Shown here: in pieces, positions 8,665 to 22,151 of the stretch
Layout: every line of letters starts with the position of its first letter
Position numbering within the stretch: the first letter of the stretch is position 1
Source of the DNA: Herpetosiphon giganteus
GTDB taxonomy: Bacteria > Chloroflexota > Chloroflexia > Chloroflexales > Herpetosiphonaceae
DNA length: 64,000 nucleotides
NCBI RefSeq assembly: GCF_016907925.1
Contig: NZ_JAFBCZ010000016.1
Location: 1 to 64,000 of the forward strand
Direction: 5' to 3'
The notes under the pieces: model-generated
Told to the model about the DNA's origin: nothing
The model's database searches: none
Seen by the model: the letters and a program-made list of their open reading frames with translations, nothing else
Program-made: the position numbers and the translations under genes

Positions 8665-8685
8665 GATATTGATTTTTTTCAATCT
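8665..8685. promoter_or_regulatory. 21-bp dyad operator candidate, copy 1
   Basis: GATATTGA, five T, TTCAATCT: an inverted repeat (ATTGA...TCAAT) with the same 21-bp length and flanks as copy 2 at 8812-8832, differing at three central positions. The size and A/T-rich dyad resemble ArsR/SmtB-type operators in general form. The binding protein is unknown. Confidence 0.5.
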
Positions 8686-8811
8686 CTATGCTAGGCTAAG
8701 CAGCAACCAAACTTCGCATGCTAGTCAGCACAAGGCTGGCATATTTTTAGCAATCGCTTATCGAAAAAATTCAATTCATCATCATTTTGAGGTGGATTTT
8801 TGTTTCGCTTA

Positions 8812-8832
8812 GATATTGAAAATTTTCAATCT
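8812..8832. promoter_or_regulatory. 21-bp dyad operator candidate, copy 2
   Basis: Contains the perfect 16-bp palindrome ATTGAAAATTTTCAAT flanked by GAT and CT. It lies 22 nt before the start codon of the first operon gene, just ahead of its ribosome site (AGGAGG at about 8842), a position suited to repression. Copy 1 lies 147 bp upstream. Confidence 0.55.
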
Positions 8833-10159: not shown

Positions 10160-10199
10160 AATGGCCGCTTAGCAAGCAATTGTAAAAAAGGATTTGGTT

Positions 10200-11426
10200 A
10201 TGCGGCAAAGCCCATTTTATGGCTGGTGGATTGTGAGCACGCTAGGATTTACCGAAATGACTTCGTGGGGCGTGATTTACTACGCATTTAGCGTGCTTTT
10301 GGCTCCGATGCAGCAGGAGTTGGGTTGGTCGCAGGCCCATTTTACTGGTGGATTTTCGTTAGCGCTGTTTATTTCAGGGATTGTTGCCTTGCCAATTGGG
10401 CGCTGGCTCGATCAGCACGGCGCACGTGGTTTGATGACGCTTGGCTCGTGTTTGGCAACGGTTTTGGTTGTGGCATGGGCCAATGTCCAAACGCTCTTGG
10501 CTTGGTATCTGATTTGGGCTGGCTTGGGGGTGGCGATGGCGGCAATTTTATATGAGCCAGCATTTGCCGTCGTCGCAACATGGTTTCAGCGCAAACGCCA
10601 ACATGCACTCACCATTTTGACGGTTGGTGGTGGTTTGGCGAGCGTTGTGTATGTGCCCTTAATCACGCGTTTGCTCAGCACAATGGCTTGGCGCGAAGTC
10701 TTGCTTTGGCTAGCTGGTGGCTTGGCGATCCTCACGATTCCGCTTCATGGCTTGGTGCTACGAGCCAAACCTGCCGACTTGGGCTTGTTGCCCGATGGAG
10801 AGCCGTTGCCTGTTGTTGCCACTGCGTCTACGCCGCCGATTCAACCATCGATGTCGTTGAGCAAGGCTCTGCGCGTTGGCGCATTTTGGTGGTTGGCGTT
10901 GGCATTTGGCCTGACCACGATGGCAACATTTACGCTTGGCGTGCATTTGATCTCGGCGATTAAAGCCCAAGGCTATGCGCCAGAAATTCAGGCCTTGGCT
11001 GTTGCAATCTTGGGTGGTTCGCAAATTCCCAGCCGGATTTTGATTGGCAGCATAGGACGGCGTTTGCCTCAAGCACAATTAGCGTGGATGTTGTGTTTGG
11101 TGCAAAGCTTGGCTTTTGCAATCTTCTTATCTGTGCCAAGCGTTGCGGGCTTAATGCTCTTTGCCTGCTTGTTTGGCGCTGGTTCTGGTGCGTTGACTCC
11201 AACTCGTGCAGCCTTGGTGGCCGATGTATTTGGCAGCGCCCAATATGCCAGCATCAGCGGAGCTTTAGCGTTGTTGACGACAACTGCGCGGGCGTTGGCC
11301 CCGGTTTTGGCCAGCTTGTTGGTGGCGCTGCTGCATAGTTATCAACCACTTTTTGGCTTATTGTTGCTGATGTGTCTAATCAGCGCAGCAGCAATTTACT
11401 TCATTCGAGGTGCAAGCAATGCCTAA
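10200..11426 (+). CDS. MFS transporter, 12 membrane segments
   Basis: 408 residues. It opens with 'FYGWWIVSTLGFTEMTSWGVIYYAF', the pattern of the monocarboxylate/oxalate-formate branch of the major facilitator superfamily, and shows the loop motif 'GRWLDQHGARGLM'. About 12 hydrophobic segments. The substrate cannot be read from sequence; between two flavoproteins and a stress-type sigma factor an export role is plausible. ATG 10200 (AAGGA 8 nt upstream) is preferred to the TTG at 10194. The end overlaps the next start by 8 nt. Confidence 0.8.
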   Translation: MRQSPFYGWWIVSTLGFTEMTSWGVIYYAFSVLLAPMQQELGWSQAHFTGGFSLALFISGIVALPIGRWLDQHGARGLMTLGSCLATVLVVAWANVQTLLAWYLIWAGLGVAMAAILYEPAFAVVATWFQRKRQHALTILTVGGGLASVVYVPLITRLLSTMAWREVLLWLAGGLAILTIPLHGLVLRAKPADLGLLPDGEPLPVVATASTPPIQPSMSLSKALRVGAFWWLALAFGLTTMATFTLGVHLISAIKAQGYAPEIQALAVAILGGSQIPSRILIGSIGRRLPQAQLAWMLCLVQSLAFAIFLSVPSVAGLMLFACLFGAGSGALTPTRAALVADVFGSAQYASISGALALLTTTARALAPVLASLLVALLHSYQPLFGLLLLMCLISAAAIYFIRGASNA

Positions 11427-12513
11427 GCAAACGATTGTAATTGGCGCAGGTCAGGCTGGCCTCGCTGCTGGCTATTGGCTGCAACGAGCCAAGGTGCCGT
11501 TTCAAATTCTCGAGGCCCAGCCGCTGGTTGGTGGCTCCTGGCCAGCCTATTATGCCAGTTTGAAGCTCTTTTCGCCTGCTCGATTTTCGAGTTTACCGGG
11601 CCTTGATTTTCCTGCGCCTGCTGCTAGCTATCCCGACCGCGATGCTGTGGTTGCCTATTTGCGGCGTTATGCTGAGCATTTTAAGTTGCCAATTCAAACC
11701 AACACACCAATTCGCACGATCGAACGCCAGCAAGCTGGTTTTCGGCTGCTAACGAACGATGGGCGGGTTTTTCAAGCTGGCCAGCTTATTGCGGCAACTG
11801 GAGCATTTTCGCGGCCTTTTATGCCTCAATTGCCTGATCAAGGTTTATTTCAAGGCCAGATTTTACATAGTGCTAGCTATCGCACACCACGTGATTTTGC
11901 TGGCAAACGGGTGATTGTGGTGGGTGCTGGCAATTCGGCGATTCAAATTGCGCTTGAGCTTGCCGAGGTTGCCAACGTAACCCTTGCCACCCGCCAGCCA
12001 ATTCGCTTTCAAGCCCAAACGATTGCCGGACGCGATCTGCATTGGTGGTGGTGGCTGACGGGCTTTGATCGCTTGTCGCTCGATAGCCGTTTGGGCCGCT
12101 GGATTCAGCAACGCACTCAGGGAATTGTCCTCGATACTGGTCTGTATAACAGAAAGATTAGTCAAAATCAACCGCAGCGTCGAGCCATGTTCGAGCGTTT
12201 TACTGAAACTGGGATTGTTTGGGCCGCTGGGCAGCCCGAGCCAGTTGATGTCGTGTTATTTGCAACTGGCTATCGGCCAGCTTTAGGCTACCTGCAAAAC
12301 CTCGATGCCTTGGATGAAGCTGGCTTGCCATTGCACAAGGCTGGAGTTAGCACCACGGTTGATAATCTGTATTATGTTGGCTTGGAGCAACAATATAATT
12401 TCGCGTCGGCAACCTTGCGCGGCGTTGGCGCTGATGCAGCCCGAGTTGTGCGCCAGATTCAAGCACACGCACATCAACCAACTCGTTGTTGTCGTTGGGC
12501 GGTGTGGCAATGA
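11419..12513 (+). CDS. Flavin-containing monooxygenase (ArsO/CzcO-like)
   Basis: 364 residues. FAD-binding 'IVIGAGQAGLAAGYWLQ' at the N-terminus, the 'PLVGGSWPAYYASLKLFSPA' substrate-side segment, 'GAFSRPFMP', a second dinucleotide motif 'VIVVGAGNSAIQIALEL', and 'VVLFATGYRPAL'. This is the single-component monooxygenase pattern, often labelled ArsO/CzcO when next to metal(loid) genes. The substrate is not determined. Start ATG 11419 (GAGG 9 nt upstream) overlaps the MFS gene; the stop overlaps the sigma gene in ATGA, so the operon is translationally coupled. Confidence 0.78.
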   Translation: MPKQTIVIGAGQAGLAAGYWLQRAKVPFQILEAQPLVGGSWPAYYASLKLFSPARFSSLPGLDFPAPAASYPDRDAVVAYLRRYAEHFKLPIQTNTPIRTIERQQAGFRLLTNDGRVFQAGQLIAATGAFSRPFMPQLPDQGLFQGQILHSASYRTPRDFAGKRVIVVGAGNSAIQIALELAEVANVTLATRQPIRFQAQTIAGRDLHWWWWLTGFDRLSLDSRLGRWIQQRTQGIVLDTGLYNRKISQNQPQRRAMFERFTETGIVWAAGQPEPVDVVLFATGYRPALGYLQNLDALDEAGLPLHKAGVSTTVDNLYYVGLEQQYNFASATLRGVGADAARVVRQIQAHAHQPTRCCRWAVWQ

Positions 12514-13061
12514 ACCAGCTCGATTTGAATCAGCTTTGGTTGAATTTAGCCGAGCCACTCCGTCGATTTCTCGGCGCACGTTTGGCTGATCCGACTGCGG
12601 TCGAAGATTTGTTGCAAGATATTTTTCTGGCTGCCTATCTCAATCGCGAGCAACTCCACGACCCTGAGCGTAGTCGGGCTTGGTTGTGGCAAATTGCCCG
12701 TCGCAAACTCATCGATCGCTATCGTAGCCGTCGCGAAACCAGCGAGATTGATGAAAATTTGACGGCTGAACCGCAACAAACACCGCCAATTTTAGCTGAC
12801 TTTGAGCAGTGTGTGCAGCACATGTTGGCCCGTTTGCCGGCCCAAGATCGCTTGGTTTTGCAACGCACAGCCTTTGAAGGCATCAGTCAACAGGCCTTGA
12901 GCCTCGAATTGGGCTTGTCATTTTCGGGAACAAAATCGCGGGTTCAGCGCGCACGCCAGAAATTACGCCAGCTGTTCGATCAATGTTGTGCGATTGAGCG
13001 CGATGCTGATGGCCATGTGTTGGATTGTTATCCACAGCCGCAATCAATTCAACTCGTTTAA
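12510..13061 (+). CDS. ECF-type sigma factor, SigZ-like
   Basis: 183 residues. Region 2 spans about 13-75 ('AVEDLLQDIFLAAYLNREQL', 'AWLWQIARRKLIDRYRSR') and region 4 about 100-160 ('LPAQDRLVLQRTAFEGISQQ', 'SGTKSRVQRARQKLRQLF'). After region 4 comes 'CCAIERDADGHVLDC', a cysteine-bearing tail also seen in SigZ-labelled proteins. No anti-sigma gene is adjacent, so activity may be controlled by expression or by the tail itself; this is inference. It starts inside the stop of the monooxygenase gene (ATGA). Confidence 0.82.
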   Translation: MNQLDLNQLWLNLAEPLRRFLGARLADPTAVEDLLQDIFLAAYLNREQLHDPERSRAWLWQIARRKLIDRYRSRRETSEIDENLTAEPQQTPPILADFEQCVQHMLARLPAQDRLVLQRTAFEGISQQALSLELGLSFSGTKSRVQRARQKLRQLFDQCCAIERDADGHVLDCYPQPQSIQLV

Positions 13062-13422
13062 GCTGCGTCCTTTTGCTAATTGACCGTCTTTAATAGTACA
13101 ACGCATGTGAATGACTCAAAGCGCATGCTGCAACACTATTTATAGTAACGCCGCAGAACACCCCGCCCCAAGACCCATGCTGTTGGTTCCCCGCGCGGGA
13201 TGCATGCGTGCCAGTTCTGACGAAGAGCAATTAACGAGAGCAAGAGCAAGCTACCCCGTGACTATATAATCATGCGTTATTCGGTTATTTTGACTGCGTG
13301 AAACATACGCTATTCTATACAGTCAAAAAAACGACTAGTATCGCGTATAATAGTCGTCGCTCTGCCTTCCTTGGTTCGGTGTAGCCGCGCCCTCGGCTGT
13401 TTGTAGCAGCGTGAGGGCATTC
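13062..13422. other. Gene-free spacer between the sigma gene and the HTH gene
   Basis: No convincing ORF. It contains a GC-rich inverted piece (CCCCGCGCGGG, about 13190), the near-perfect dyad ACGACTAGTAT/TATAATAGTCGT at 13331-13357, and a two-part stem (GCCCTC..GCTG / CAGC..GAGGGC, about 13390-13418) directly downstream of the HTH gene. It may be the remnant or edge of a mobile element whose other end lies beyond tnpB. Confidence 0.45.
13331..13357. promoter_or_regulatory. Inverted repeat near the HTH gene
   Basis: ACGACTAGTAT-CG-CG-TATAATAGTCGT: 10 of 11 arm positions match. It lies downstream of the small HTH gene and 270 bp after the sigma gene. It could be a recombination or operator site; there is no direct evidence for either. 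Confidence 0.35.
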
Positions 13423-13623
13423 TCATTTGTTATCACCTACTTCTTTTTGCGATTCCTTTCTTGCCTCCTCAAGGAATCGCTGAACCTCCTCAATTGGGAT
13501 ACGATGGGCGCGTCCAAACTTATACGATTTGACCTTGCCTTGCTTAATCCATAGCCGAATGGTCTGTTCTGACAGCTTTAGATATTCGGCTAATTCCTCA
13601 GTTGTGTAAAATTCCGCTGACAT
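13423..13623 (-). CDS. Small excisionase-type HTH DNA-binding protein
   Basis: 66 residues that are almost entirely a MerR/excisionase-like winged helix: 'FYTTEELAEYLKLSEQTIRL', then 'KSYKFGRAHRIPIEEVQRFL'. Proteins of this type bind DNA as Xis factors or small regulators. The same domain begins the IS607 serine recombinase, but no recombinase follows here. ATG 13623 (AAGGGG upstream) is preferred to ATG 13659. It is divergent from tnpB across an AT-rich spacer and may be a relic of the same mobile region. Confidence 0.7.
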   Translation of the reverse strand: MSAEFYTTEELAEYLKLSEQTIRLWIKQGKVKSYKFGRAHRIPIEEVQRFLEEARKESQKEVGDNK

Positions 13624-13942
13624 GTCTGCCCCTTGATGAGATATGGTTTTTATATTCATAGTCTATTATATAGTAGCTCTCTAGTCAATACTTGTATATA
13701 ATTATTTATTGACAAATATATATAATAGTATATAATTTTGATACAAATAAATTTGTTGGGTGCTAAGAACATTCTACAATTCCGGATGGGTTTCGCACGT
13801 TCCCCACGCTGAAACGCTGTCATTGTTGGGGTCGTGGGCTTTGGACTGATGGATGCCGGGTACCCGCTGGGTGACGGTTCGGCGGGGACGGTTTCTGCCC
13901 AAACCATGGCCATGGATAGCGCCAATCAAAAGGAGCCTGATC

Positions 13943-15100
13943 ATGTCAACGCTGACCCGTTGCTATAAATATCGCCTATACCCTACCGCTGATCAACAAA
14001 CCACCTTGGTCCAGTGGGCGGGTTGCCGACGCTTCGTCTGGAATTGGGCATTGCACTGCAAGCAAACCCACTACCAAATAACGGGTCAACGACTGAGCTA
14101 TCAACGGCTTGCGGCGATGTTGGTTGACCTGAAACGCCAACCGAAAACAGCCTTTTTGCGCGATTGCCATTCGCAACCGTTGCAACAAAGCCTGATGGAT
14201 CTAGAAACCGCCTTCACCAACTTTTTTGCCAAACGCGCCAAGTACCCGCGATTCAAAGCCCGCAAAATCACCCCTCACAGCCTACGCTTCCCGCAAGGCG
14301 TAATCGTCGTGGATGAACGTACCATCAGCGTACCAAAAATCGGACTAATGCAGGCGATCATTCATCGCCCACTCATGGGAACAGCGAAGGGCGCAACGAT
14401 CAAGCACGATCCAACGGGCGCATGGTGGGTTGTCTTCGTCTGTCATATTGAACGCCCTGATGGTCAACCAACGACTGATTGTCCTGTGGGCATTGATGTG
14501 GGACTTGAATCCTTTACCACGCTGTCAACGGGTGAGAAAACCGCGCCGCCGAAGTTCTATCGCCGCAGCCAGAAGAAACTTGCCTGCGCTCAGCGCAAAC
14601 TCTTCCGCGCTCAAAAGAGGAGCAACAATCGCTTGAAAGCTCGTAAGCGCGTTGCTAAAATTCACCAGAAAATCAGCAACCAACGCGCCGATTGGCTGCA
14701 TAAGCATGCGTTGGGGATTGTTCAACGATTCGACGTGGTGTGCATCGAAGACCTGAATATCAAAGGCCTTGTGAAAACCAAGCTGGCTAAATCATTCAGT
14801 GATGCCGCCCTCAGTACCTTCATGCAGATGTTAATAGATAAGGCAGCATGGCACGGACGGCGGGTTATTAAGGTGGGACGTTTCTACGCCTCATCAAAGA
14901 CCTGCCATCACTGCAAAACCAAAACTGCCCTGATGCTGGCAGATCGCGTGTGGACATGCCCCACCTGTGGCGCGATCCATGATCGCGATGTCAACGCCGC
15001 GATCAACATGTTGCACGAAGGAATACGCCTGCTTGCCGTTGGGACGACGGAAAGCCAAAACGCTGCCGGAGATGGTGTAAATCCAGCGAAATGCTGGTAG
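13943..15100 (+). CDS. tnpB: TnpB (IS200/IS605-type, RNA-guided nuclease family)
   Basis: 385 residues, full length. RuvC-like residues are intact: D185 in 'PVGIDVGLES', E269 in 'VVCIEDLNIKGL', D349 in 'HDRDVNAAINML'. The zinc ribbon has C321/C324 and C339/C342. TnpB proteins of this class are guided by an RNA from the element's right end and cut DNA. No tnpA transposase is in the window. ATG 13943 has AAGGAG upstream; an earlier in-frame start at 13853 would add 30 unsupported residues. The 280-bp stretch upstream of this start is AT-rich (13660-13760), then of ordinary composition. The element interrupts the interval between the sigma operon and the Cys-rich peptide. Confidence 0.9.
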   Translation: MSTLTRCYKYRLYPTADQQTTLVQWAGCRRFVWNWALHCKQTHYQITGQRLSYQRLAAMLVDLKRQPKTAFLRDCHSQPLQQSLMDLETAFTNFFAKRAKYPRFKARKITPHSLRFPQGVIVVDERTISVPKIGLMQAIIHRPLMGTAKGATIKHDPTGAWWVVFVCHIERPDGQPTTDCPVGIDVGLESFTTLSTGEKTAPPKFYRRSQKKLACAQRKLFRAQKRSNNRLKARKRVAKIHQKISNQRADWLHKHALGIVQRFDVVCIEDLNIKGLVKTKLAKSFSDAALSTFMQMLIDKAAWHGRRVIKVGRFYASSKTCHHCKTKTALMLADRVWTCPTCGAIHDRDVNAAINMLHEGIRLLAVGTTESQNAAGDGVNPAKCW

Positions 15101-15152
15101 CCATCGTTGAAGGCAGAAGCCACGCCCCTCGTGGGCGTGGTAGTTCACTTAC
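15101..15152 (+). mobile_element. Right end of the TnpB element / omega-RNA 3' hairpin
   Basis: Just after the tnpB stop: GAAGGCAGAAG, then CCACGCCC-CTCGT-GGGCGTGG and TAGTTCAC, the usual right-end hairpin and terminus of IS200/IS605-type elements. In known TnpB systems the guide RNA scaffold ends here and the guide is copied from the flanking DNA. That flank is TTACAGGAGGCCGCTC, the ribosome site of the 28-residue peptide. The left end was not identified. Confidence 0.65.
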
Positions 15153-15164
15153 AGGAGGCCGCTC

Positions 15165-15251
15165 ATGGCAACGAACGAACCCACCCAATCGAACGACGAC
15201 TGCTGCTCAGCAGAAGAACAAGCAACTTGCTGCTCAGGCGATTGCTGCTAA
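15165..15251 (+). CDS. 28-residue peptide with three Cys-Cys pairs
   Basis: A short ORF with a strong ribosome site (ACAGGAGG, 6 nt before ATG). The second half reads CC-SAEEQAT-CC-SGD-CC, then TAA: six of the last sixteen residues are cysteine, in three vicinal pairs. Vicinal thiols bind arsenite, zinc, cadmium or copper, so a metal(loid)-binding or carrier role is plausible but inferred. A bidirectional terminator follows 20 nt later. Without the TnpB insertion it would lie just beyond the flavoprotein/MFS/sigma operon, whose first enzyme also ends with a CCG tail. I do not recognise a named family. Confidence 0.6.
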   Translation: MATNEPTQSNDDCCSAEEQATCCSGDCC

Positions 15252-15270: not shown

Positions 15271-15306
15271 AAAAGGCCTTGACAGGATAGTATGTCAAGG
15301 CCTTTT
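15271..15306. terminator. Bidirectional terminator
   Basis: Perfect 14-bp stem AAAAGGCCTTGACA / TGTCAAGGCCTTTT with an 8-nt loop, A-rich on one side and T-rich on the other. It serves the Cys-rich peptide (+) and the cellulase gene (-). Confidence 0.9.
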
Positions 15307-17825: not shown

Positions 17826-20800
17826 ATGAATTTCTTCCGGTCTCAGCGCAATTATGGGCGGCTTTTACTCGCCTTAATCGTCGTTCTTAATCTTGGTATG
17901 GCACGCTCTGCGGCAGCTGCTGGAGAGACTCCCTACGCTAATTCTGTTGATTCGAGTACGAGCGGGGTGATTGTTAATGGCAATAATGCGGTTGGCGCAC
18001 CAAACGGTACTACAACAACTGTGCTAGGATTGGTCGGCTTAAATCTGACCCTCGATATGGGCTTAAACGAAGAAGGTACTGGCGACCTTGTGGTCTACTA
18101 CGCTGGGATCGGCGTACAAATAGCTCCAACGGTTCAGTTCCTCAATAGTAGCCGCCAAGTGATATCCTCGGCTCCATTAAATCTGATTGGTTTATCACTT
18201 GGTTCGATTTATTCAACCACTGTAACCTATGCAAATAAGCCTACTCCATACCGCTATGTCCGCTTTACCTCACTGTTAACTGCATATCAAATTGATGCAG
18301 TTGCAGCGATAACATTTCGCCCCGATAGCGATAACGATGGGGTGAATGATAGTGATGAAATTACCAACGGCACTAACCCCCTTAACCCTGATACTGATGG
18401 CGATGGTTTGAATGATGGCCAAGAAATCGTCAATGGGACTAACCCGAATAACCCCGATACTGATGGCGATGGCATGCCCGATGGTTGGGAAGTCAGCTAT
18501 ACGCTCAATCCAAACGATGCAACTGGCGCAAATGGCGCAGCTGGCGACCCAGATAGCGATGGCTCGACCAACTTGCAAGAATATCAAAAATCGACCAATC
18601 CCAAAAATGCTGATACTGATGGCGATGGCTTGAATGACGGCGCTGAAACAACCGCCGGCACCAATCCGAACAATCCCGATAGTGATGCTGATGGTTTGCC
18701 CGATGGTTGGGAAGTGACCTATACGTTGAATCCATTGAGTTCAACTGGCGCAAATGGCGCAGCTGGCGACCCTGACGCTGATGGTTCAACCAACCTGCAA
18801 GAATATCAAAGAGGCACCAATCCCAAAAATGCTGATACTGATGGCGATGGGTTAAACGATGGTGCTGAAGCAGCGCTTGGCACCAATCCAAACGATAGTG
18901 ACAGCGATAACGATACCTTGCCCGATGGCTGGGAAGTTACCAACAGCCTCAATCCATTGAATGCAAGCGGCAACCAAGGTGGCTCAGGCGACCCTGACGC
19001 TGATGGCTCGACCAACTTGCAAGAATATCAAAATAGCACGAACCCCAATGACAACGATAGCGACAACGATAGCTTGACGGATGGCCAGGAAGCCACCTTG
19101 GGCACGAATCCCAATAATCCCGATAGTGATGCCGATGGCTTGCCCGATGGTTGGGAAGTTGCAAACAGCCTCAATCCATTAAGCAATACTGGCGCAAATG
19201 GTGCAGCAGGCGACCCTGATGCTGATAGCTCAAGCAACTTGCAAGAATATCAAAATGGCACCAACCCCAATGATAATGATAGCGACAACGACGGCTTGAC
19301 CGATGGCGCTGAAGCCAGCGCTGGCACGAACCCGAATAATGCTGATAGCGATGGCGATACCTTGCCCGATGGCTGGGAAGTCAACCATGGCTTGAATCCA
19401 TTGAACAGTACCGGGAACAACGGCGCAACCGGCGACCCCGATAATGATGGTTCGAATAATGCAGCCGAATATGCAGCAGGTACCCATCCTAACGATAATG
19501 ACAGCGACAATGATGGCTTGGCTGATGGCGCTGAAGCTGCGTTGGGAACCAACCCGAATAACCCTGATAGTGATGGCGATGGCTTGCCCGATGGCTGGGA
19601 AGTTACCAATAGCCTGAATCCTTTGAATCCAACTGGCACCCAGGGTGCAGCAGGCGACCCCGATACCGATGGCTCATCGAACTTGCAAGAATATCAAAAT
19701 GGGACGAATCCAAATGATAACGACAGCGATAACGATGGCTTGACTGACGGCGAAGAAGCCACCTTGGGCACGAATCCGAATAACGCTGATACTGACGGCG
19801 ATGGATTGCCCGATGGCTGGGAAGATGATAATGGACTTGATCCATTGAGCGGCGCTGGCGATGATGGCGCAGCAGGCGATCCCGATGCTGATGGCTCGAA
19901 TAACCTACAAGAATATCAAAATGGCACCAATCCAAATGATAATGACAGCGATAACGACGGCTTGAATGATGGCGCTGAAGCTGTTGCTGGCACGAATCCA
20001 AATGATAGTGACAGTGATGATGATGGTTTGCCAGACGGCTGGGAATTGAACAATGGCTTGAATCCATTGAATCCCAATGATGCTGCTGGCGACCCTGATA
20101 ACGATGGCTTGGATAATGGTGATGAATTTGCCAACGATACTAATCCACAGGTTGCTGATAGCGACAGCGATGGGTTAAACGATGGTGATGAGGTCGCAGT
20201 TGGTACGAATCCAAATGACAGTGACACCGACAACGATAGTTTGCCTGATGGCTGGGAAGCCGATAATGGGCTTGATCCATTGAGCGGTACTGGTGATGAT
20301 GGTGCAGCTGGCGATCCCGATGCTGATGGCTCGAATAACGCTGCTGAATATGCAGCTGGCACCAATCCAAATGACAATGATAGCGATAATGATGGCTTGA
20401 CCGACGGTGAAGAATCGAGCCTGGGTACCAACCCAAATAATGCTGATAGTGATGGCGATGGCTTGCCTGATGGCTGGGAAGTTGATAATAGCCTGAATCC
20501 ATTGAGCAACATGGGCGATGATGGTGCAGCTGGCGACCCAGATGCTGATGATTCGAGCAACTTGCAAGAATATCAAAATGGCACGAATCCCAATGACAAC
20601 GATAGTGACAACGATGGCTTGAATGATGGCGCTGAAGCTGTCGCAGGCACCAATCCAAACGATAGTGACAGCGATAACGATACCTTGCCCGATGGCTGGG
20701 AAGTTGATAATGGGCTTGATCCATTGAGCGGTACTGGTGATGATGGTGCAGCTGGTGACCCAGATGCTGATGATTCGAGCAACTTGCAAGAATATCAAAA

Positions 20801-22151
20801 TGGCACGAATCCCAATGACAACGATAGTGACAACGATGGCTTGAATGATGGCGCTGAAGCTGTCGCAGGCACCAATCCAAACGATAGTGACAGCGATAAC
20901 GATAGCTTGCCTGACGGCTGGGAAGTTGATAATGGGCTTGATCCATTGAGTGGCGCTGGTGATGATGGGGCAGCTGGCGACCCAGATGCTGATGATTTGA
21001 ACAATGCCGACGAATATAGCAATACTACTAATCCAAACGATAGCGATAGTGATAATGATACCTTGCCCGATGGTTGGGAAGTAAGCTATGGACTTGATCC
21101 ATTGAGTGGTACTGGTGATGATGGGGCAGCTGGCAATCCTGATAACGACAGTTATGACAATGCAACCGAATTTGCCAATGGTACCAGTCCAATAGTCTTT
21201 GATGCACCTGCGGCAACTAATACGCCAGTGCCAACAGCGACCGAAGTCCCAACGGCAACCAGCGTTGTACCAACCGCAACCGAGGTTCCGACCGCAACGG
21301 CGACCGAAGTCCCAACGGCAACGGCGACTGACGTACCAACGGCAACCAGTGTTCCGACCGCAACGGCCACTGACGTACCAACGGCGACCAGTGTTCCGAC
21401 CGCAACGGCCACTGATGTCCCAACGGCAACGGCGACTGACGTACCAACGGCAACCAGTGTCCCGACCGCAACGGCAACCGACGTGCCAACGGCAACGGCG
21501 ACTGACGTACCAACGGCAACCAGTGTTCCGACCGCAACGGCCACTGACGTACCAACGGCGACCAGTGTTCCGACCGCAACGGCCACCGACGTGCCAACGG
21601 CAACGGCAACTGATGTCCCAACGGCAACCAGTGTCCCGACCGCAACGGCCACTGACGTACCAACGGCAACCAGTGTCCCGACCGCAACGGCAACCGACGT
21701 GCCAACGGCGACCAGTGTTCCGACCGCAACGGCCACTGATGTGCCAACGGCGACCAATGTACCAACCGCGACGGCAACTGATGTGCCAACGGCAACCAGT
21801 GTCCCGACCGCGACGGCGACTGACGTGCCAACCGTAACCGCGACCGCTACAGCGATTGCAACCGCGACCGCAACGTCGATTGCGACCGCAACGGCAACCA
21901 ACGTACCGACTGCAACAGCCACGGCAATTGTAACTGCCACGGCAACGGCAACCAATGTACCAACTGCGACGAGCACCAACGTGCCAACTGCGACGAGCAC
22001 CAACGTGCCAACTGCGACGAGCACCAACGTGCCAACTGCGACGAGCACCAACGTGCCAACTGCAACGAGCACCAACGTGCCAACTGCGACGGCGACGACT
22101 CAACCAACCCAAGTCAAGATTTTCTTGCCAATCGCAATGAAAGGCGAATAA
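17826..22151 (+). CDS. Large secreted protein with thrombospondin-3-like calcium repeats and PTAT-rich stalk
   Basis: 1441 residues. Signal peptide at 1-33, then a unique domain to about 165 that begins near '[13 protein letters not shown]' and looks beta-rich. Residues about 165-1125 are a long array of acidic repeats; 13 units contain 'PDGWE', each with 'DxDxDGLxDGxE', 'GTNPN' and 'LQEYQ' segments. This matches thrombospondin type-3/EF-like calcium-binding repeats, so the region should be a calcium-stiffened rod. Residues about 1137-1425 are a [11 protein letters not shown] stalk. The protein ends '[11 protein letters not shown]', a tail shared with two other surface proteins here. A surface or sheath role is inferred. 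Confidence 0.85.
20541..20984 (+). repeat. Two nearly identical 222-bp tandem units inside the repeat protein
   Basis: GATGCTGATGATTCGAGCAA begins at 20541 and again at 20763. The following 150 bp or more are almost unchanged between copies (74 codons per unit), whereas other units of the array differ at many synonymous sites. This marks a recent duplication. Confidence 0.8.

Follow-up and report, generated by a model that had tools for sequence, protein, structure and literature searches.

The window, a stretch of 64,000 nucleotides from Herpetosiphon giganteus, contains genes for an FAD/NAD(P)H-dependent oxidoreductase (ORF1), an MFS transporter, a flavin monooxygenase and a SigZ-like ECF sigma factor, followed by a TnpB element and a short ORF encoding a micropeptide with adjacent cysteine pairs (Table 1). 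All of these upstream genes and the intervening TnpB element, which had been described in the initial annotation, were recovered by domain searches. When the micropeptide ORF was re-read from the DNA, its coordinates, start, stop and sequence agreed exactly with those given there.

Table 1. Features of the micropeptide locus, with positions in the window.
Feature	Position	Strand	Basis or remark
Three ArsR-type palindromes	8668..8830	.	8668-8683 ATTGATTTTTTTCAAT, 8760-8775 ATCGAAAAAATTCAAT, 8815-8830 ATTGAAAATTTTCAAT
ORF1, FAD/NAD(P)H-dependent oxidoreductase, conserved C-terminal CKTQFGGEACCG segment	8855..10159	+	Pfam Pyr_redox_3
MFS transporter, ArsK-like	10194..11426	+	NF033733 ArsK best match
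ArsO-like NAD(P)H-dependent flavin monooxygenase, terminal CC pair	11410..12513	+	NF040505 best match
SigZ-like ECF sigma factor, C-terminal CC-x4-D-x2-G motif	12510..13061	+	TIGR02959
Predicted SigZ-type promoter of the micropeptide gene, TGCGTC-N15-CGTC	13064..13088	+	Conserved in 6/6 genus genomes
IS200/IS605-type TnpB element, between promoter and micropeptide	13144..15148	+	2,005 bp; empty sites in congeners G004 and G005
Shine-Dalgarno AGGAGG of the micropeptide	15153..15158	+	Sequence; 6 nt 5' of ATG
CC-pair micropeptide	15165..15251	+	28 aa, MATNEPTQSNDDCCSAEEQATCCSGDCC
Intrinsic terminator 3' of the micropeptide, probably bidirectional	15271..15306	.	Folding and alignment

The peptide is laid out as MATNEPTQSN-DD-CC-SAEEQAT-CC-SGD-CC-stop. 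The ribosome site and the perfect terminator that had been reported for it were both found. The AGGAG core of the Shine-Dalgarno sequence is conserved in the alignment of congeners, and the terminator has a 14-bp stem without mismatch (-24.2 kcal/mol, z = -5.7 for the folded region), the pairing of which is maintained in other congeners despite sequence differences. Neither the micropeptide nor its orthologues matched a family in Pfam or NCBIfam.

It had been proposed that the lack of a homologous short ORF in relatives without the TnpB insertion would speak against the gene. Instead, orthologues were detected in all five other Herpetosiphon genomes (tblastn, E-values from 7.6e-12 to 3e-5), located about 100 nt 3' of the stop codon of the SigZ-like sigma gene without an insertion. 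They contain three to four CC pairs and are 31 aa long in two congeners, the closest relatives of the window strain, and 43 aa long in three (e.g. MATNEPTQSNNDCCSAEEQATCCSDACCDCC and MPTTETTKSNNDCCSAEEQATCCSADEKTNCCGSSQASSCGCR). The peptide of the window is the shortest in the genus and has one terminal DCC unit fewer. Within the core DCCSAEEQATCCS, every nucleotide difference among the genomes is synonymous. Matches of tblastn outside the genus (L007-L014) were weak and chance-like, without comparable CC-pair peptides, and a plasmid search using the micropeptide as query gave no match.

The frequency of similar ORFs was assessed with a filter for short ORFs of up to 130 aa with at least three CC pairs and a Shine-Dalgarno sequence. 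Across 947 kb of SigZ loci, 15 ORFs passed this filter, of which 13 are convincing peptides. Neither 400 kb of arbitrary Chloroflexota DNA nor the reversed SigZ loci yielded any. The loci were sampled by similarity of the sigma factor and not by peptides, and the sample of phyla is not random. Without the Shine-Dalgarno filter, one CC-rich short ORF among 2,324 was found in the control DNA and one more inside the window. Since CC-rich short ORFs also arise by chance, the case for the gene is carried by its conservation. Judged by this conservation, the micropeptide ORF is a genuine gene.

The TnpB gene itself spans approximately 13943-15100 (NCBIfam TnpB, 358 bits), and the ends of the element were defined by comparison with G004 and G005, in which the site is empty. 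No element is present in the gap between sigma and peptide genes in any of the five congeners, which marks it as a recent insertion. The earlier view that a TnpB element separates the micropeptide from the operon to which it belongs is thereby borne out, as the ORF directly follows the sigma gene in the TnpB-free congeners. Because promoter and ORF are thereby 2 kb apart, expression of the micropeptide may be impaired in the window strain. Other sites in the genus carry related copies of the element that share its right end. The first bases to the right of the element, TTACAGGAGGCCGCTC, are the ribosome site of the micropeptide gene. Since the guide RNA would carry TTACAGGAGGCCGCTC as guide, the element would target the empty allele. 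A small excisionase/HTH-like ORF lies on the minus strand inside the element (13426-13659, TTEELAEYLKLSEQTIRLWIKQGK...).

The upstream genes resemble known arsenic genes without reaching the family cutoffs. The MFS protein scored 159.8 bits against the ArsK model NF033733 (cutoff 400) and the flavoprotein 286 bits against the ArsO model NF040505 (cutoff 425). These are the best family matches in both cases, and the proteins are referred to as ArsK-like and ArsO-like only. The ArsO-like protein carries a CC pair at its C-terminus (RCCRW). A CC motif had also been said to end the first enzyme of the operon, ORF1, which is conserved among congeners; the motif is present as GGEACCG, near the C-terminus and not terminal. 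In Paenibacillus harenae, an ORF1 homologue (L085:3512-4918) whose tail contains two CC pairs is encoded divergently to an adjoining sigZ, and this locus also contains arsR-like, pump-like and arsC-like genes.

Upstream of ORF1, the three palindromes are of the type ATTGA-N6-TCAAT and are conserved in the aligned congeners. The first overlaps the -35 element of a sigma70-like promoter, TTGATT-N17-TAGGCT (8669-8697), and the SigZ motif is absent from the ORF1 promoter. In each genus genome, an exact palindrome copy was found only at the micropeptide operon. In G004 and G005, similar palindromes precede genes of the arsN-like and arsM types that are neighbours of arsR. The genome of the window strain encodes the same ArsR (96% identical), with a palindrome before an arsN-like gene beside arsR. 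Acr3 is absent from five of the six Herpetosiphon genomes, so the ArsK/ArsO-like operon may be a main exit for arsenic. ArsM was rejected as a partner in the window strain, as the best match in its genome is only a weak one to a methyltransferase; a strong ArsM match was obtained in each of the five other Herpetosiphon genomes.

The sigma factor scored 161.6 bits against TIGR02959 (cutoff 168.65) and 160.8 bits against NF007215 (cutoff 212). As both values are below the cutoffs, it is referred to as SigZ-like; several of the comparison loci exceed the TIGR02959 cutoff. Weaker matches to this model, at about 80-99 bits, were taken to be other ECF sigma factors and excluded. Alignments confirmed the C-terminal CC-x4-D-x2-G segment in the sigma factor of the window. 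Its CC is invariant in an alignment of 10 SigZ sequences and conserved in at least 90% of an alignment of 36, and 49 of 55 SigZ proteins examined have a CC within the last 60 residues. The later cysteine that is usual elsewhere (position 180) is missing from the Herpetosiphon proteins, which have a cysteine at position 173 instead. In an AlphaFold2 model that is confident per residue (mean pLDDT 91, pTM 0.55), the last long helix is followed by a beta-hairpin that begins with the CC; the model gives no information on metal. No anti-sigma gene was seen beside the sigma gene of the window.

Alignment of the sigma-peptide gap among congeners revealed a conserved block, TGCGTCCTTTnGnnAATTGnCCGTCTTTAAT, with the half-sites TGCGTCCTTT and CCGTC. 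A corresponding pattern, TGCGTC-N16-CGTC, occurs 100 times in 99 SigZ loci from many phyla, comprising the Chloroflexota loci and 80 others, and not once in a control with reversed order, while other spacings of the two half-sites yielded 0-10 occurrences. Outside these seeds, CTTTT after the first half-site and a T after the second are conserved. The half-sites and the CTTTT and CGTCT extensions of the window promoter are conserved in the genus, but its spacer is 15 nt long. With spacers of 15-17 allowed, the strict pattern matched once in each of the six Herpetosiphon genomes, always 5' of the micropeptide and with spacer 15, which is also used in a few other SigZ loci (L126, L127). Among 301 Chloroflexota genomes, with Herpetosiphon set aside, the strict motif was present in 15 of the 17 genomes with a SigZ above the cutoff compared to 4-5 of about 278 others (Fisher p ~3e-19). 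Three strict matches in Chloroflexota without an intact SigZ match (L181-L183) are chance-like. Another (L185) precedes an apparently degenerate arsM stretch, and one (L196) precedes a SigZ gene that is interrupted in the assembly. The co-occurrence of motif and SigZ is strong, and SigZ presumably binds at the motif.

The genes found behind TGCGTC-N16-CGTC include sigZ itself, arsM, ArsP_1 permeases, DUF2703 proteins, a glyoxalase, a CMD protein and CC-pair peptides. An arsM gene is present in about 30 of the 80 SigZ loci, and the gene order in Ktedonobacterales is arsR-aqp-arsC-sigZ-arsM. Among the loci inspected, none showed a recognisable Cd, Zn or Cu exporter. The link between SigZ and arsenic is not universal, since at least one SigZ locus, on a P. 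megaterium plasmid (L250), lacks the motif and is without neighbouring ars genes. Several further predicted targets were observed. In seven loci (L093, L100, L107, L111, L115, L122, L128), mostly from Nitrospira, SigZ-type promoters precede a gene with a glyoxalase fold upstream of sigZ, which appears ArsI/CadI-like by eye. DUF2703 or DUF2703-like proteins, several with CC/CxC-rich ends, recur behind such sites (L106, L113, L119, L141, L144, L149), and an arsenic role of this domain is suggested. SigZ-type sites in Ferrimonas and Thalassomonas (L124, L130) precede a gene of the class I/II aminotransferase fold (MalY/PatB-like by eye), possibly acting in cysteine metabolism.

A search for CC-pair short ORFs near SigZ genes of other lineages had been recommended initially, and it identified free-standing peptides with at least three CC pairs. 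Some adjoin SigZ genes and others occur within these neighbourhoods close to genes of ArsP-type permeases; the lineages are Ktedonobacterales (85 and 116 aa), a Chloroflexia MAG (30 aa), Anaerolineales (75-98 aa), Gracilibacillus (60 aa), Paenibacillus (62 aa), Chryseolinea (24 aa) and Opitutales (66 aa). Most of the peptides adjoining sigZ have the TGCGTC-N16-CGTC motif directly 5', the Opitutales peptide has an imperfect copy upstream, and those of Anaerolineales are located behind other genes near ArsP-type permease genes and not directly beside sigZ. Peptides from different lineages have little common sequence beyond the CC pairs, and ten of them gave no match at E<=1 in Pfam or NCBIfam, including metallothionein or cysteine-rich families. 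A possible 12-aa peptide, MDVRIVKNACCG, behind a SigZ site in L085 lacks a ribosome site and was left out of the count.

A parallel arrangement is found on enterobacterial plasmids, where a SigZ-like sigma gene lies directly 5' of arsD in 1,237 PLSDB records, so that the gene of a known As(III) chaperone takes the position of the micropeptide. Klebsiella, Salmonella, Enterobacter and E. coli are the hosts of these plasmids, to which the loci L249, L252 and L253 belong. The plasmid sigma factors reach 138-142 bits and have a terminal CC. In the records read, arsD is followed by an ArsA-like ATPase gene, and the order on a Klebsiella plasmid is arsR-arsH-sigma-arsD. Within the sigma-arsD gap, GCGCATCTTTTT and TCGTTTAC are constant and the spacer sequence is variable; this may represent a promoter that has diverged but retained the 16-nt spacing. 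In RNA-seq of pBIC1a without arsenic, arsH was expressed at 39, the next gene at 47, arsD at 9 and the ATPase at 4 RPKM (PMC6286996). These levels fit a separate, uninduced arsD promoter and are no proof of one; judged by the gene order, the next gene is probably the sigma gene.

Taken as sequence features, the micropeptide gene, its conservation, the operon, the promoter motif, the operators and the insertion are well supported. The micropeptide is probably a SigZ-induced thiol peptide of an arsenic-detoxification operon, serving as a sink or chaperone for As(III) or methyl-As(III), in line with the initial view of a metal-sink or metallochaperone-like peptide. Arsenic is the likeliest metal owing to the ArsK-like transporter, the ArsO-like flavoprotein and the ArsR-type operators. 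We infer that arsenic is the inducer, that the thiols bind it, that SigZ senses it and reads the motif, and that SigZ is subject to feedback. Arsenite would release ArsR, encoded elsewhere, from the palindromes over the operon promoter, and ORF1, the ArsK-like exporter, the ArsO-like monooxygenase and SigZ would then be made. The C-terminal vicinal cysteines of SigZ may sense As(III) directly, whereupon SigZ would switch on the promoter in front of the CC-pair micropeptide. The vicinal thiols of the peptide would, by analogy, bind As(III) or methylarsenite in the cytosol, shielding proteins and supplying the exporter. As a possible feedback, the peptide may also take arsenic from SigZ and thus turn it off. 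Several observations weigh against this reading: the ArsK-, ArsO- and SigZ-like proteins score under the family cutoffs, the Herpetosiphon promoter has a spacer of 15 and its sigma factor a displaced cysteine, the ORF1 promoter carries no SigZ motif, the insertion may impair expression in the window strain, vicinal thiols accept other metals, and the locus L250 shows no arsenic link.

The explanation that the micropeptide is a short intergenic ORF produced by chance is extremely improbable. CC-rich short ORFs do occasionally occur at random, but this one is present in six of six genomes with synonymous-only changes in its core, a ribosome site, a terminator and a promoter, and no such ORF with a ribosome site was obtained from 400 kb of control DNA. 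It is unlikely, and less easily dismissed, that the gene has lost its function in the window strain through silencing by TnpB, with the ORF now decaying. The insertion between promoter and ORF and the absence of the terminal DCC unit, with 28 aa compared to 31 in the two closest relatives, would agree with this. Nevertheless, the ORF, its Shine-Dalgarno sequence and its terminator are intact and three CC pairs are left. Since TnpB lies on the same strand, read-through into the micropeptide is possible.

Two other explanations concern the role of the peptide. It could chiefly regulate SigZ, either as a thiol partner competing with the CC of SigZ for As(III) or as an anti-sigma-like feedback factor. 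This would account for the micropeptide being the only SigZ target predicted by the strict motif in Herpetosiphon, for the frequent position of CC peptides next to sigZ, and for a conserved CC in SigZ where no anti-sigma gene is seen beside the sigma gene of the window. However, a specific protein-binding partner would not be expected to vary as the CC peptides do across lineages, the Anaerolineales peptides are found at ArsP-type permease genes rather than directly at sigZ, and ArsD takes the same place on plasmids, which together make a mainly regulatory role rather improbable. Improbable to a similar degree is a metallothionein-like peptide for Cd, Zn, Cu, Hg or Bi, or a general thiol/redox buffer, for which arsenic would be incidental. 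Vicinal thiols are promiscuous and also bind Cd, Zn, Cu, Bi, Sb and Hg. The association of SigZ and its sites with arsM, ArsP-type permeases, arsD and arsR-arsC argues against such a role, as do the ArsK/ArsO-like genes and ArsR-type operators of the window operon and the failure to recognise a Cd, Zn or Cu exporter in the inspected loci. In its favour, Cu and Cd/Zn are the signals of the sigma factors CorE and CorE2 (PMC8999054), which likewise bear C-terminal extensions rich in cysteine.

Under the preferred reading of an arsenic-binding peptide, one of the closest known counterparts is ArsD, which binds As(III) and passes it to ArsA (PMC12607644; PMC6205960). Both have vicinal cysteine pairs, and plasmid arsD directly follows a SigZ-like sigma gene as the micropeptide gene does in congeners. 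However, ArsD has about 120 aa and its own model, NF033727 (domain of about 97 residues), which neither the micropeptide nor its orthologues of 28-43 aa matched, and the micropeptide operon showed no ArsA partner. Bacterial metallothioneins and the cysteine-rich N-termini of ArsM are likewise small cysteine-rich segments, and the ArsM proteins behind SigZ promoters start with CC-pair segments, but there is no detectable homology, and the cysteines of the micropeptide form adjacent pairs in a free-standing peptide. We therefore propose that it would work like ArsD or a metallothionein, yet is a member of neither.

The sigma factor shares the C-terminal CC and the promoter half-sites with the SigZ family and differs in its score just below the TIGR02959 cutoff, its spacer of 15 instead of 16 and its displaced later cysteine. 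Like the CorE and CorE2 (ECF238) types, it has a cysteine motif after region 4, and direct metal sensing without an anti-sigma factor, as in those types, is plausible (PMC8999054). CorE additionally needs a CxC in the sigma2-sigma4 linker, and the CorE types respond to Cu or Cd/Zn (PMC8999054); this CxC is absent from the linker of the window sigma.

A wider proposal is put forward tentatively, with confidence just short of even. SigZ could be an arsenic-responsive, one-component ECF sigma factor of wide distribution, sensing As(III) via its C-terminal cysteine hairpin and reading a near-invariant promoter, TGCGTCYTTTT...CGTCT, in many phyla, with CC-pair micropeptides as repeatedly evolved arsenic buffers and, in Herpetosiphon, one sigma serving essentially one peptide of 28-43 residues. 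A full-text literature search, which covered only a minority of subscription papers, returned no paper tying SigZ to arsenic or a regulon or describing CC-pair peptides, and the novelty of both is provisional. From the sequence comparisons, SigZ gains a sharply defined promoter, a set of arsenic genes and a candidate inducer. As sigma-arsD pairs occur on more than 1,000 enterobacterial plasmids, the idea of a SigZ-arsenic link is testable in laboratory E. coli. Annotation and curated libraries miss the recurrent class of CC-pair micropeptides, and the TGCGTC-N16-CGTC motif offers a simple finder for more small arsenic genes.

Elsewhere in the window, the protein encoded at positions 17826-22151 is 1,441 aa long. 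It contains numerous [12 protein letters not shown]-type repeats, which appear calcium-binding by eye, and a long low-complexity tail rich in T/A/V/P.
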